Part shown: in pieces, positions 14,497 through 64,000 of the stretch
How the letters are laid out: every line of letters begins with the position of its first letter
Numbering within the stretch: the stretch's first letter is position 1
NCBI RefSeq assembly: GCF_003856835.1
Contig: NZ_CP034145.1
Coordinates: 310,001-374,000, forward strand
Direction of reading: 5' to 3'
Source of the DNA: Haloplanus aerogenes
GTDB taxonomy: Archaea > Halobacteriota > Halobacteria > Halobacteriales > Haloferacaceae
DNA length: 64,000 nt
Notes under the pieces: generated by a model
What the model was told of the DNA's origin: nothing
Database searches by the model: none
Seen by the model: only the letters and a program-made list of their open reading frames with translations
Made by a program: the position numbers and the translations under genes

Positions 14497-15882
14497 ATGC
14501 TCAGCAGGCAGTACCTCCGGGAGAACCCGGACGTGGTGCGGCGGAATCTCGAAGACCGGGGGATGGCCGACGACGTGGATCTGGACCGTCTCCTGGAGAT
14601 CGACGAGGAGTGGCGCTCGCTCAAGAGCGAGGGTGACGACCTGCGCCACGAGCGCAACCAGGTGAGCGACAAAATCGGCCGCCTCAAAGGGGAAGGAAAG
14701 GACGAGGAGGCCGAGGAAGCCATCGAGCGCTCCCAGGAACTCAAAGCACGTCTGGAGGAGGTCGAAGCCCGCGCCGACGAGTTGGAGGCCGAACTCGAAG
14801 CGGGGTTGATGGAGATTCCGAACGTCCCGCACGACGACGTGCCCGTCGGCGAGGACGAGAGCGACAACGTCGAGAAGCGTCGCCACGGCTTCGACGACCT
14901 GCGCGACCTGCCCGACGAGGTGACCCCTCACTACGACCTCGGGGAGGACCTCGACGTGATCGACGAAGCCCGCGGCGCCAAGACGACGGGTGCCGGCTTC
15001 TACTTCCTGAAGGGTGACGGCGCCCGCCTCGAACACGCCCTCATCCAGTTCATGATGGACGTGCATCGCGAACAGGGCTACGTCGACCTCTTCCCGCCCA
15101 TCCCGGTCAAGTCCACGTCGATGGAGGGGACGGGGCAGTTGCCGAAGTTCGCGGAGGACGCCTACCGCATCGGCGGCGAGGAGACCGAGGACTACGACGA
15201 CGACGACCTGTGGCTCTGCCCCACCGCCGAGGTGCCCGTTACCAACATGTACGCCGACGACATCCTCCTTCGGGAGGATCTGCCGCTGAAGCATCAGGCG
15301 TACACGCCCAACTTCCGGCGCGAGGCAGGCGAACACGGCACCGAGACTCGCGGTATCGTCCGCGTCCACCAGTTCAACAAGGTGGAACTCGTCAACTTCG
15401 TCGAACCCGAGGACAGCTACGACCGCCTCGAAGCCCTCGTCGACGAGGCCGAGGAGGTTCTCCGACGCCTCGACCTTCCCTATCGCATCCTCTCGCTGTG
15501 TACCGGCGACCTGACCTTCGCGTCCGCGAAGACCTACGACATCGAGGTGTGGGCGCCGGGTACCGAGGCCGACGACGGTCCCGAACGGGGTGGCCGGTGG
15601 CTCGAAGTCTCCAGCGCCTCGAACTTCGAGGACTTCCAGTCGCGGCGGGCGGGCCTGCGCTACCGCCCCGAGCGTCACGAGTCGGCCGAGTACCTCCACA
15701 CGCTCAACGCCTCCGGGACTGCGGTGGGGCGCGTGATGGTCGCCATTCTGGAGTACTACCAGAACGAGGACGGCACCGTCACCGTGCCCGAAGCGCTCCG
15801 GCCGTACATGGGCGGCACGGAAGTCATCGAGGGGCACGAGAAGGTGGGAGAGAGCGCCGTCGGCGCGGGCGACCGGGACTGA
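14497..15882 (+). CDS. serS: Seryl-tRNA synthetase
   Basis: A 461-residue class II synthetase that charges tRNA-Ser. The N-terminal 110 residues form the tRNA-binding coiled coil (DRLLEIDEEWRSLKSEGDD). Motif 2 is FRREAGEHGTETRGIVRVHQF and motif 3 contains LNASGTAVGR. Length is close to other haloarchaeal SerRS. The final coding bases, for VGAGDRD and the stop, are the first partial copy of the 74-base tandem repeat that continues downstream, so the C-terminus sits in an expanding repeat. Confidence 0.96.
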   Translation: MLSRQYLRENPDVVRRNLEDRGMADDVDLDRLLEIDEEWRSLKSEGDDLRHERNQVSDKIGRLKGEGKDEEAEEAIERSQELKARLEEVEARADELEAELEAGLMEIPNVPHDDVPVGEDESDNVEKRRHGFDDLRDLPDEVTPHYDLGEDLDVIDEARGAKTTGAGFYFLKGDGARLEHALIQFMMDVHREQGYVDLFPPIPVKSTSMEGTGQLPKFAEDAYRIGGEETEDYDDDDLWLCPTAEVPVTNMYADDILLREDLPLKHQAYTPNFRREAGEHGTETRGIVRVHQFNKVELVNFVEPEDSYDRLEALVDEAEEVLRRLDLPYRILSLCTGDLTFASAKTYDIEVWAPGTEADDGPERGGRWLEVSSASNFEDFQSRRAGLRYRPERHESAEYLHTLNASGTAVGRVMVAILEYYQNEDGTVTVPEALRPYMGGTEVIEGHEKVGESAVGAGDRD

Positions 15883-16179
15883 GTAGGTTCGGGCTGTCGG
15901 CGGTTTTCGAGACCGTGGCGACGGCGGTGGCCGTCGGCGCGGGCGACCGGGACTGAGTAGGTTCGGGCTGTCGGCGGTTTTCGAGGCCGTGGCGACGGCG
16001 GTGGCCGTCGGCGCGGGCGACCGGGACTGAGTAGGTTCGGGCTGTCGGCGGTTTTCGAGGCCGTGGCGACGGCGGTGGCCGTCGGCGCGGGCGACCGGGA
16101 CTGAGTAGGTTCGGGCTGTCGGCGGTTTTCGAGGCCGTGGCGACGGCGGTGGCCGTCGGCGCGGGCGACCGGGACTGAG
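15859..16179 (+). repeat. 74-base tandem repeat, about 4.3 copies, spanning the serS stop
   Basis: The string gtcggcgcgggcgaccggga recurs at 15859, 15933, 16007, 16081 and 16155, exactly 74 bases apart. The unit carries the last codons and TGA of serS, then a GC-rich stretch with one cggttttcga tract. Units are almost identical; the first differs by a single base (gagaccgtgg against gaggccgtgg). The array fills most of the 386-base gap 15883-16268, which contains no other gene. It is not a CRISPR: unit length is constant and there are no variable spacers. Confidence 0.97.
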
Positions 16180-16231
16180 TGGATCCGGGTCGTTCGTGGT
16201 GCGGTTCGAACAGTGGCTACCCAGTAACGTC

Positions 16232-16268: not shown

Positions 16269-16562
16269 ATGCCAGAGTCTCCCACGCCCGACGACGACCG
16301 GACGACCATCTCCGATGAGGACTTCGCGGAGGAGTATCACGTCAGCGCCGCCGAGGCCGGCAAGTTCCTGACCGCCGTCGGCGAGCGTCTGCAGGCGGGC
16401 GACGACGTGACGCTCTCTGGCGACGACTGGGAACTCGACTTCGCCTACCGCGAACCGGTCGAACTCGAAGTCGAACACGTCGGCGGCGCCGATCCGGAAC
16501 TCGAAATCGAACTCGAACTGTCCGCCGCGGGCGACAGCGACTCGACTCCCAACATCGGCTAG
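16269..16562 (+). CDS. Amphi-Trp domain-containing protein
   Basis: A 97-residue acidic protein matching the small amphi-Trp family, with a helical N-terminal part (EEYHVSAAEAGKFLTAVGERL) and a beta C-terminal part built on alternating charged and hydrophobic residues (VELEVEHVGG, ELEIELELS). The family is common in haloarchaea and has no established role. The first in-frame ATG follows a good TATA box by 29 bases. Its stop overlaps the stop of the convergent gene. Confidence 0.75.
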   Translation: MPESPTPDDDRTTISDEDFAEEYHVSAAEAGKFLTAVGERLQAGDDVTLSGDDWELDFAYREPVELEVEHVGGADPELEIELELSAAGDSDSTPNIG

Positions 16563-16891
16563 TCGGTGTACGTCGCCAGCGATTCGATCCCCTCCGCACC
16601 GACGCGGTGGACATCGACGAAGCCGAACAGGGTCTCGCCGTCGCCGCCGAGGAGGCGCCCGCGAGCGAACACCGTCTTTCCGTCGCCCGAGACACCCATC
16701 GTCTCGACCACGTGTTCGGTGTCCGTTCGCGGCCGTTCGTCCCGCATGAACCGAACGAACTCGTCCCGGCCGGCGAGCGTCCGGTCCGGCCGCTCCTGTA
16801 CGAACCCGGGCGCGAGGAGGGCGTGCAGGCGGTCGTAGTCGCCGCCGTCGATGGCGTCGTAATACCCACGTACCGCGTCGCGACTCTCCAT
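16559..16891 (-). CDS. NTF2-like (SnoaL-type) protein
   Basis: A 110-residue protein of the cone-shaped NTF2 fold, seen in the opening RDAVRGYYDAIDGGDYDRLHALLAPGFVQERPD and a strand-rich remainder. Family members are small isomerases, hydrolases or ligand-binding domains; no catalytic assignment is possible here. The start MESRDAVRG at 16891 fits the family N-terminus better than an upstream ATG at 16942. It is convergent with the amphi-Trp gene (4-base overlap). Confidence 0.75.
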   Translation of the reverse strand: MESRDAVRGYYDAIDGGDYDRLHALLAPGFVQERPDRTLAGRDEFVRFMRDERPRTDTEHVVETMGVSGDGKTVFARGRLLGGDGETLFGFVDVHRVGAEGIESLATYTD

Positions 16892-16974
16892 ACGGCCCCG
16901 TCCGTCGCCGACCGCATGAACCGTTCGGCCACACCATGACAACTGTTTAGCACTTTCGACGCGTCAGAGGGTGT

Positions 16975-46088: not shown

Positions 46089-46325
46089 TGCGCCGTCCGG
46101 GATTCCCGCGAGTGGAGCGAGCGGGAAGTCGGACGGCAAACGACCGTAGGGAGTGCGCCGTCCGGGAATTGAACCAGAATCAGACGTGCTCGCTCACTCC
46201 GTTCGCTGCGCGCGACTGATAGGGTTCAATTCCCGAGTCACGTACTCCTTCCTCACGGCTCGCTCGTCGCTGACGCTCCTCACTCGCAGTGGTCGGAAGG
46301 AGATGCGCCGTCCGGGAATTGAACC
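46089..46325 (-). repeat. Partial copies of the tRNA-Gly 3' end
   Basis: The 22-base string at 46304-46325 (the tRNA-Gly 3' part, seen inverted on plus) is repeated exactly at 46154-46175, 150 bases away. A 14-base part, tgcgccgtccggga, occurs a third time at 46089, and the inverted form ggttcaattcccgag at about 46223-46237. The intervening 130 bases contain no gene. These look like the partial tRNA copies left by integration at a tRNA gene, or like local tRNA-derived duplication. Confidence 0.75.
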
Positions 46326-46374
46326 CGGGCTAGTGGCTTGGGAAGCCACTGTCCTACCACTGGACCAACGGCGC
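46304..46374 (-). tRNA. tRNA-Gly (CCC)
   Basis: On the minus strand the acceptor stem is gcgccgt (46374-46368) with acggcgc (46311-46305) and an A discriminator. The anticodon stem gtggc/gccac encloses ttcccaa, giving CCC for glycine. The T-arm is cccgggttcaattcccgg. No CCA is encoded. Confidence 0.93.
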
Positions 46375-62292: not shown

Positions 62293-62408
62293 CGCACCGC
62301 ACCTCCCGCCTGCAACGTCCGGGCCAGCGCCACCGGCAACCGCTCCTCCCGATCCCAGTCGACGACGGTCGCCCCGACCGGGGCGCCCGTCGACTCGCCC
62401 ACCGTCAT
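62289..62408 (-). CDS. 39-residue duplicate of the DUF58 C-terminus
   Basis: The frame MTVGESTGAPVGATVVDWDR and EERLPVALARTLQAGGAVR repeats the last 26 residues of the DUF58 protein (GATVVDWDREERLPVALART and QAGG). It arose by a 113-base tandem duplication, leaving an ATG that overlaps the DUF58 TGA at one end and a TGA that overlaps the next ATG at the other. Translational coupling along the operon is thus preserved. Whether the peptide accumulates is unknown. Confidence 0.55.
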   Translation of the reverse strand: MTVGESTGAPVGATVVDWDREERLPVALARTLQAGGAVR

Positions 62409-62492
62409 CGCGTCCCTCCCGCCTGCAACGTCCGGGCCAGCGCCACCGGCAACCGCTCCTCCCGATCCCAGTCGACGACGGTCGCCCCGACC
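62302..62492 (-). repeat. 78-base direct repeat, period 113
   Basis: Bases 62302-62379 and 62415-62492 are the same 78-base sequence (cctcccgcctgcaacgtccg at each start) with no difference that I see. The second copy is the 3' end of the DUF58 gene; the first forms the 39-residue frame. Confidence 0.9.
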
Positions 62493-63727
62493 TCTCGCAT
62501 CCGGTCGAGTCGAATCCCTCGCTCCAGCGCGAGCGTCCGGCCGCCGACCGACTCCGGCGTCACCGCCGGCGAGAGGACGGTCGTTTCGTGGCCGTGGGTG
62601 CGGATCGTCTCGACCATCGACGCCACCGCGTCGTCGAGTGCCGGCGTGCAGAGAATCACCTGCGCCGTCGCGGGGAGATGGCCGAGGAAGCGGACGAGGG
62701 CGGCGTCGCGTCCGCCGTCGGTCGTCGCTCGCGTCGTCGCCGCCGGCGTCGTCCGCGCGGTCACGGCCTCCTCCGCTCCCGTCGCGGCGGCGTTGCAGAC
62801 GGCGGCCGCGTGGGCCGCGAAGCCGTCGGCGTCGGGCGGCACCCACGCCGGTCGGCGGCCGGTGATCGGATCGGCCGGCCCGAGCGCCCCGACGCCGACG
62901 TGGTGCCCCTCGTCGCGGAGGACGCGCACGGCGAGCGTCCCGGCGTACGCACACAGCGTCGCGCCGGTGGGGAGCGACGCCCCGGCGGCGACGTGGTTCG
63001 GGTCGCGCCCGTCGATCAACACCGCCACCCTCGCCGCGCGCTGTTCGCGGTACTCGACCGTCGAGAGCTCGCCCGTCTTGGCGTAGCGCCGCCAGTTGAT
63101 CCGGCTGACCGGGTCGCCGGCGCGGTAGTCGCGGGTGGCGTGGAACTCGACGCCGACGCCGCCGGTGTCGGTCGCCAGCGACCCCGAGAAGGCGGTGGTC
63201 CGGCGCCGAAGCGGCACGTCCTCGGCGTCGATCCGACATTCGAACGCGCCGGGGCCGTCGGCCTCACGGGTCGTCTCCGCGACGACCGTCCCGCTCACGC
63301 TCGACGCCCGCAACCGGACCGGCTGGAAGGCGTAGCGACCGCGGTTCGCGGTCAGCGTGTACTCGGCGGTCACCGACTCGCCGGGCCGGAGCGCCGCGCC
63401 CGCGCTCGCCGCTCCCTCGCGGATCGCGAGTTCCTCGGGTACGCCGTCCCGCACCCGCAGATCCGGCAGGATCGACGCCCCGACGTTCGTCACCGTCAGC
63501 GTCACCTCGACCGGCTGTCCCGGGAGCGGCGTCTCCGGTCGAACCTCGCGCTCGACCCGCACCTGTTCGTCGAGTGGCTGGAGCGTGGACAGCGCCCCCT
63601 GCACGACGAACGCGAGCGGCACGATACCCGCGAGCAGGAGCGTCGGCGTGCCCGTGCCGACGCCGACGGAGACGAGCAGGACTGCCGCGGCAACCAGTCC
63701 CTGATACCGGCGGACGCGACGGATCAC
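62405..63727 (-). CDS. DUF58 domain protein
   Basis: A 440-residue membrane-anchored protein. Two hydrophobic segments (about 8-24 and 28-44) precede an extracytoplasmic-type beta region (VEREVRPETPLPGQPVEVTLTV) and the DUF58 core YRAGDPVSRINWRRYAKTGELSTVEYREQR with a von-Willebrand-like AVLIDGRDPN start. Members work with MoxR ATPases in envelope or complex maturation. It begins with GTG at 63727, overlapping the upstream gene's TGA by 4 bases. Its C-terminus is duplicated downstream. Confidence 0.88.
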   Translation of the reverse strand: MIRRVRRYQGLVAAAVLLVSVGVGTGTPTLLLAGIVPLAFVVQGALSTLQPLDEQVRVEREVRPETPLPGQPVEVTLTVTNVGASILPDLRVRDGVPEELAIREGAASAGAALRPGESVTAEYTLTANRGRYAFQPVRLRASSVSGTVVAETTREADGPGAFECRIDAEDVPLRRRTTAFSGSLATDTGGVGVEFHATRDYRAGDPVSRINWRRYAKTGELSTVEYREQRAARVAVLIDGRDPNHVAAGASLPTGATLCAYAGTLAVRVLRDEGHHVGVGALGPADPITGRRPAWVPPDADGFAAHAAAVCNAAATGAEEAVTARTTPAATTRATTDGGRDAALVRFLGHLPATAQVILCTPALDDAVASMVETIRTHGHETTVLSPAVTPESVGGRTLALERGIRLDRMREVGATVVDWDREERLPVALARTLQAGGTR

Positions 63728-64000
63728 GACGACCCCTCCAGTGCCCGGCGGAGCGCCCGGAGCCGACCACCCCGCGACGACGGCGGCGCCTCGTATCCCG
63801 ATAGCCGCTCGGCACACGCCTCCTCGACGGCCGCGAGCGTCCGTTCGACCCGCCGCTCGTAGGCGCGGCCGGGATAGAGCCACGCGTACAGGCGGTGGTA
63901 CCACGGGTAGTCGACGGCAGTGGTAGTGGTGAGGAAGGCGGCCGCGTACCGGTCGTCGGTCCACTCTCCTCGGTCGACGTACGCTTCCGCCGCGTCGTGG
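63724..64000 (-). CDS. DUF7269-like protein, C-terminal part
   Basis: The last 91 residues of a gene whose start lies beyond the window edge. The visible part reads HDAAEAYVDRGEWTDDRYAA, then a Tyr/Trp-rich patch (DYPWYHRLYAWLYPGRAYE), and a basic helix ending in LEGSS. I recall such a family (DUF7269) upstream of DUF58 genes in haloarchaeal MoxR clusters. It overlaps the DUF58 start by 4 bases (GTGA), so the genes form one operon. Confidence 0.65.
   Translation of the reverse strand, partial: HDAAEAYVDRGEWTDDRYAAAFLTTTTAVDYPWYHRLYAWLYPGRAYERRVERTLAAVEEACAERLSGYEAPPSSRGGRLRALRRALEGSS

Follow-up and report, generated by a model that had tools for sequence, protein, structure and literature searches.

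At the 3′ end of the seryl-tRNA synthetase gene serS, the last codons of the gene and its stop codon are repeated again and again into the DNA beyond. How did the end of an essential gene come to be copied outward, what keeps the copies alike, and are the repeated 3′ ends of any use to the cell? Comparison with related genomes points to an older duplication that has undergone concerted evolution and has been expanded in this genome. We consider it probable that the array is a stop-spanning minisatellite which descends from an ancestral duplication, has been homogenised by recombination and is for the most part near neutral.

The array behind serS

An initial annotation of this DNA had described 74-base units, each with the last eight codons of serS, its TGA and a T-tract. 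Tandem Repeats Finder (TRF), run over the whole 64-kb stretch analysed (the window), and a count base by base confirm that the array is real, and it is the top-scoring TRF array by a wide margin. The extent first given for it, 15859-16179 with about 4.3 copies, was a few bases short (Table 1). Copy 1 (15856-15929) agrees with the unit at 73 of 74 positions, the one-base divergence already noticed being A for G at 15912, and copies 2 to 4 (15930-16003, 16004-16077 and 16078-16151) are identical. After 16151 a further 29 bases match the unit, and exact likeness ends at 16180. Shifted by 74 positions, the sequence matches itself exactly over as much as 194 nt, whereas none of 20 mononucleotide shuffles gave a match above 10 nt. 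The unit starts with GCC GTC GGC GCG GGC GAC CGG GAC TGA, the final eight codons and stop of serS, so the gene's own end is what was copied, as had been proposed. Neighbouring tails are separated by 47 nt.

Table 1. Positions of serS, its tail copies and neighbouring or comparable features (window coordinates unless a locus is named)
Feature	Position	Strand	Details
serS, seryl-tRNA synthetase	14497..15882	+	ORF; Pfam PF00587 (tRNA-synt_2b), PF02403 (Seryl_tRNA_N)
serS tandem array	15856..16180	+	74-bp period, 4.4 copies, 99%; TRF, base-by-base count
Tail copy 1	15856..15882	+	within serS (its last 27 nt); 8 codons + TGA, stop ends at 15882
TTTTC, terminator-like T-stretch + C	15904..15908	+	also 15978, 16052, 16126
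Inverted arm (14 nt from the start of the tail)	15912..15925	+	11/14 pairs; GGTG loop 15926-15929
Tail copy 2	15930..15956	+	beyond the gene; stop ends at 15956
Tail copy 3	16004..16030	+	stop ends at 16030
Tail copy 4	16078..16104	+	stop ends at 16104
Tail copy 5	16152..16178	+	stop ends at 16178
Amphi-Trp domain gene, downstream	16269..16562	+	co-oriented with serS; Pfam PF20068
SnoaL-like gene	16559..16942	-	convergent; Pfam PF12680
tRNA-Gly	46304-46374	-	last 22 nt repeated at 46154-46175, inverted T-arm copy between
scpA tail arrays	L143:3993-5000 and orthologues L178-L189		period mostly 74-79 bp

Minisatellites have units of about 10-100 bp, and the serS copies stand head to tail at a period of 74. 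Since this period is not a multiple of three, the copies are not coding repeats; every plus-strand frame is closed. A dispersed or MIRU-like family was also rejected, as full unit copies are confined to the serS locus in its own genome, where other matches are partial (E 0.003 or worse). The spacers are identical except for one base, which is not a CRISPR array. At the curated threshold Rfam gave no match in the array, and the single sub-threshold match lies inside serS.

What we take to be a TATA-box-like motif, TATACTTA, was seen by eye upstream of the Amphi-Trp domain gene. In a close relative with a single tail (G003, locus L007), the Amphi-Trp gene behind serS seems to have decayed to a short relic.

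serS tails in related species

The serS gene was found in all 12 genomes of the genus. A tail was scored as copied if its last 21 nt recurred within 180 nt at 15 or more of 21 positions. This is so in five genomes: the present one (G000, 74 bp), G002 (73), G006 (77), G008 (73) and G007 (21). Seven have no copy, which excludes the uniform copy number across relatives that the initial annotation had set against a recent expansion. Outside the genus, one of 18 loci, the best-scoring 18 of 46 matching outgroup genomes, has a tail copy (G017, 16/21; Fisher p 0.026 against the genus). Extra tails thus number from 0 to 4 among the 12 species, a copy-number difference among relatives as in minisatellites, and the slippage or unequal recombination first suggested fits it. 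Among the genomes examined, the rise to four extra tails is special to this one.

The copy in G017, which belongs to another genus, lies at offset 52 behind serS (L021) and is diverged; read by eye, tail and copy both encode GAGERE, with synonymous differences only and TAG versus TGA. Two further matches outside the genus are not serS. L130 appears coding, judged from the matched letters alone, and L131 is presumably a repeat of 27 bp that follows an ATPase-like gene, from the ORF list and by eye.

In a six-gene phylogeny tandem tails occur in G000, in the sister species G002 and G006, and in G008. These species are found on either side of a clade of nine, to which the single-tailed G001, G003, G010 and G011 belong as well. 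The tandem label needs three changes on this tree, so loss after one origin and multiple gains are both possible. One origin is the more likely because the 73-77-bp arrays of all four species share their period and the same junction; against this, the tree topology would also allow separate origins.

The four arrays have a further element in common. In each unit an inverted copy of the first 14 nt of the tail stands before the direct tail copy, with a 4-nt loop (GGTG or GGTC) between them; in G000 it recurs at 15986-15999, 16060-16073 and 16134-16147. Pairing of this arm, out of 14, is 11 in G000, 13 in G002, 12 in G006 and 13 in G008, levels reached by 18, 0, 27 and 0 of 1000 shuffles, respectively. 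Across species the arm has a mean identity of 0.80, versus 0.56 for the remaining spacer.

Concerted evolution and the origin of the array

Copies are closer within species than between them. Spacer identity is 0.97-1.00 inside an array and 0.51-0.68 across G000, G002, G006 and G008, and for the last 39 nt the identity across species is 0.85-0.95. Each array matches the serS tail of its own species, and species-specific changes of the tail are present in every copy: GACCGGGAC in 5/5 G000 tails, GAGCGGGAG in 3/3 G002 tails and GAGCGAGAG in 2/2 G006 tails. The tails of G008 differ at one base. Because the congeners' arrays combine a like period and the same junction with uniformity inside each species, the near identity of the units reflects homogenisation. 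Since the last serS codons lie within the uniform repeat, coding sequence here evolves jointly with non-coding DNA, and an essential gene has its end kept equal to non-coding copies.

Haloarchaea convert alleles very efficiently, and excerpts of PMC8223754 describe very efficient intermolecular gene conversion in Haloferax volcanii; such conversion would be able to keep the units equal. The likeness is one of mechanism. Conversion in polyploid haloarchaea as described there acts between chromosome copies, whereas the serS case lies within a tandem array.

We propose that in an ancestor a single duplication took in the gene end and its 3′ flank, and that an inverted tail copy was formed at the junction. 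An inverted copy in this position is the trace that would be expected from fold-back, strand-switch or hairpin-driven template switching during replication, and template switching is a known source of amplification in yeast (PMC11790251, in part). The array may later have grown, shrunk or been lost through slippage and unequal recombination, while homologous recombination and gene conversion would keep every copy in step with the coding tail; in G000 the array would have been enlarged to four extra tails. A duplication across a stop codon keeps the gene whole and so survives, and the array would have been tolerated because the first copy keeps gene and stop intact. Most likely the array is close to neutral, at most supplying spare 3′ end signals.

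The new part, compared with known minisatellites, is a stop-spanning unit in concerted evolution with the gene end. Prokaryotic minisatellites and VNTR loci likewise have head-to-tail, near-identical units of tens of bp whose number varies among relatives, but the serS unit takes in the coding end of a gene together with its stop and stays equal to the gene across species. The MIRU of Mycobacterium tuberculosis, which the sections of PMC2734929 used here give as units of 40-100 bp present at 41 sites, are alike in unit size and gene-boundary position; they form one family at many sites, whereas the serS unit has full copies at one. Archaeal Borg tandem repeats, as excerpted from PMC9879509, share perfect units and intergenic periods often indivisible by three. 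They are A-rich, recently formed and independent, whereas the serS array is rich in GC and congeners have homologues of it.

A possible role in transcription termination

The main alternative is that selection maintains the units as a tandem terminator, or as a structure in the 3′ UTR, which would halt serS read-through into the next gene repeatedly. Haloferax ends transcripts at T stretches that have a C behind them and also at certain hairpins, and in assays reported in the available part of PMC7237163 T stretch plus C terminated 95% and one hairpin 59%. Each G000 unit has a TTTTC after the stop that fits this motif. In 662 G000 genes TTTTC occurs at 0.69/kb in the first 50 nt past called stops, versus 0.14-0.20/kb in the last 300 nt of genes. 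Judged by motif, the multiplied termination that the initial annotation had raised is possible in G000, but the array spacers of G002, G006 and G008 have no TTTTC or T4 tract. The absence of a conserved T-tract and the existence of single-copy relatives (7/12 congeners do without copies) count against a general need for repeated 3′ ends.

Bacterial terminators are often clusters of hairpins (PMC8355165, in part). No bacterial-type terminator was found. RNA folding of the post-stop region is weak, with z-scores of -0.6 and -1.7 in G000, -0.3 and 0.2 in G002, -1.6 and -0.8 in G006, and -3.1 and -2.5 in G008, the only one clearly below shuffles.

More favourable to a structural role are the inverted arm conserved across species and a second gene, scpA (Pfam SMC_ScpA). 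Its tail is copied in 8/12 congeners at offsets of 25-79 bp, and in 0/27 outgroup loci (27 of 57 outgroup loci; p 8e-6). A hairpin directly follows the stop in the scpA arrays, with 82% of cells paired and 6/11 pairs changed on both sides. These figures come from nine hairpins of five species that we chose ourselves; degenerate ones were omitted (for example in G003, G008 and G001, and also the third unit of G000 and the first of G007), so the covariation result leans towards structure. The layout of inverted plus direct copy is clear in 3/6 scpA arrays tested, where the arm lies at the tail copy and at most 6/500 shuffles reach it; it is weak in one and of a different kind in two. Both the conservation of the arm and the covariation in the scpA hairpin hint at selection, something that a near-neutral array can do without. 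Given the missing T-tracts and a folding that is ordinary except in G008, selection for repeated termination seems rather unlikely, if the most serious competitor to a near-neutral minisatellite.

Alternatives: recent expansion, integration and assembly

The near identity of the units had been read as a sign of recent expansion, and three identical units with one substitution are what a single such event in this lineage would leave. Three other species have arrays of the same period and junction, however, and since species-specific codons occur in all copies, near identity is no evidence of recent birth. The claim is largely refuted for the duplication itself and stands just for the rise to five tails, which makes a single recent expansion improbable as an account of the whole array.

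Still less probable is a remnant of site-specific integration that rebuilt the 3′ end of the gene. The 3′ ends of protein and tRNA genes are indeed found directly repeated, and according to the portion of PMC3119063 drawn on here partial tRNA copies mark haloarchaeal prophages, where, as here, a gene 3′ end is directly repeated downstream. Those element-linked duplications lie kilobases apart, often with integrase genes. The serS tails are 47 nt apart with nothing more between them, no recombinase-bearing element among them and no integrase in the unit, so an attachment repeat was rejected; and no single integrative element fits, because each unit carries the tail of its own host gene. Short near-identical repeats are prone to mis-assembly, but separate assemblies of four species show homologous yet differing arrays, and an artefact is hardly credible.

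Copies at other gene ends

In G000 the survey covered 864 kb, made up of the window and 40 further stretches of 20 kb; from G002, G008 and G007 it took in 400 kb apiece. Gene ends were called by our own codon-bias script. A tail copy of at least 20/21 was found at 4/1526 gene ends, two of them in G000 (serS and scpA), one in G008 and one, scpA, in G007. The best copy of a start codon region reached 16/21. A census of arrays with a period of at least 20 and identity of at least 85% returned 57 in the sampled stretches. Forty lie within called genes, and in 39 of these the period is a multiple of three, as would be expected if arrays persist where they are tolerated. The other 17 lie outside called genes, eight of them with a period of at least 35. 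One of the eight is the serS array and one (L241, 39-bp period) was judged on reading to be coding on the minus strand, though it is still counted among the 17. All six others are at or close behind 3′ ends, of four protein genes (scpA twice, an amidohydrolase gene and a Usp-family gene) and two tRNA genes, and no array is found at a 5′ end only. The 3′ versus 5′ sign test is modest (6:0, p 0.031; p 0.0625 with scpA counted once). Among the nine non-genic arrays of shorter period, a single one reaches a 3′ end, and the other eight reach neither a 3′ nor a 5′ end.

Eight of 27 sampled tRNA genes have their own 3′ end (20-24 nt; threshold at least 18 nt) repeated within 320 nt downstream, and 0/27 have an upstream repeat of their 5′ end; the same test on protein genes gave 4/1446 and 0/1446. 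An inverted piece of the T-arm (9-14 nt) lies downstream in all eight copy-bearing tRNA genes versus 3/19 others (p 7e-5). The succession T-arm, inverted T-arm, T-arm occurs in 217/293 genomes of the order, from 77/87 genera, in a pattern that demands T-arm words only and not the whole tail; its reversed control had no match in the 293 genomes. The open-access text we consulted on haloarchaeal tRNA duplications treats prophage-sized insertions, and this short-range form was not found in it.

What merits pursuit is the link between the serS array and the similar copies seen behind scpA and tRNA genes. Tentatively, and with less confidence than we attach to the minisatellite itself, we suggest a recurrent haloarchaeal 3′-end module, consisting of gene end and flank, an inverted part-copy, a short loop and a direct copy. 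One process would then act at the transcription termini of serS, scpA and tRNA genes, with the coding tail as master copy of a satellite that evolves in concert, and it might arise by hairpin-driven template switching or by selection for doubled termini. If 3′ ends are a general copy hotspot in haloarchaea, they would offer a small, naturally occurring model in which to study how duplication, template switching and gene conversion work in polyploid archaea, and raise the question of whether tandem 3′ ends are used.

Several single loci deserve mention. Besides the tRNA-Gly gene of Table 1, seven more tRNA genes of the four sampled genomes with a downstream 3′-end copy and an inverted T-arm piece are at L206, L214, L190, L194, L246 and L169. 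A 94-bp array lies behind the tRNA gene of L206; in L214 the array is 196 nt from the tRNA gene, with tail copies in between. At L227:14910-15117 a 69-bp array of three units begins at the stop of the amidohydrolase gene; most of its units end with a TAG, and each contains a long hairpin. Finally, a 113-bp tandem duplication (78 nt exact) at 62302-62492 of the window copies the tail of a minus-strand ORF, 62405..63964, that has weak DUF58/DUF11 similarity, and lies between its stop and the start of the next minus-strand ORF. As we read it, the duplication leaves a small ORF that overlaps one stop with its own start and, at its other end, the following start with its own stop, an arrangement that we take to recall that of MIRU.
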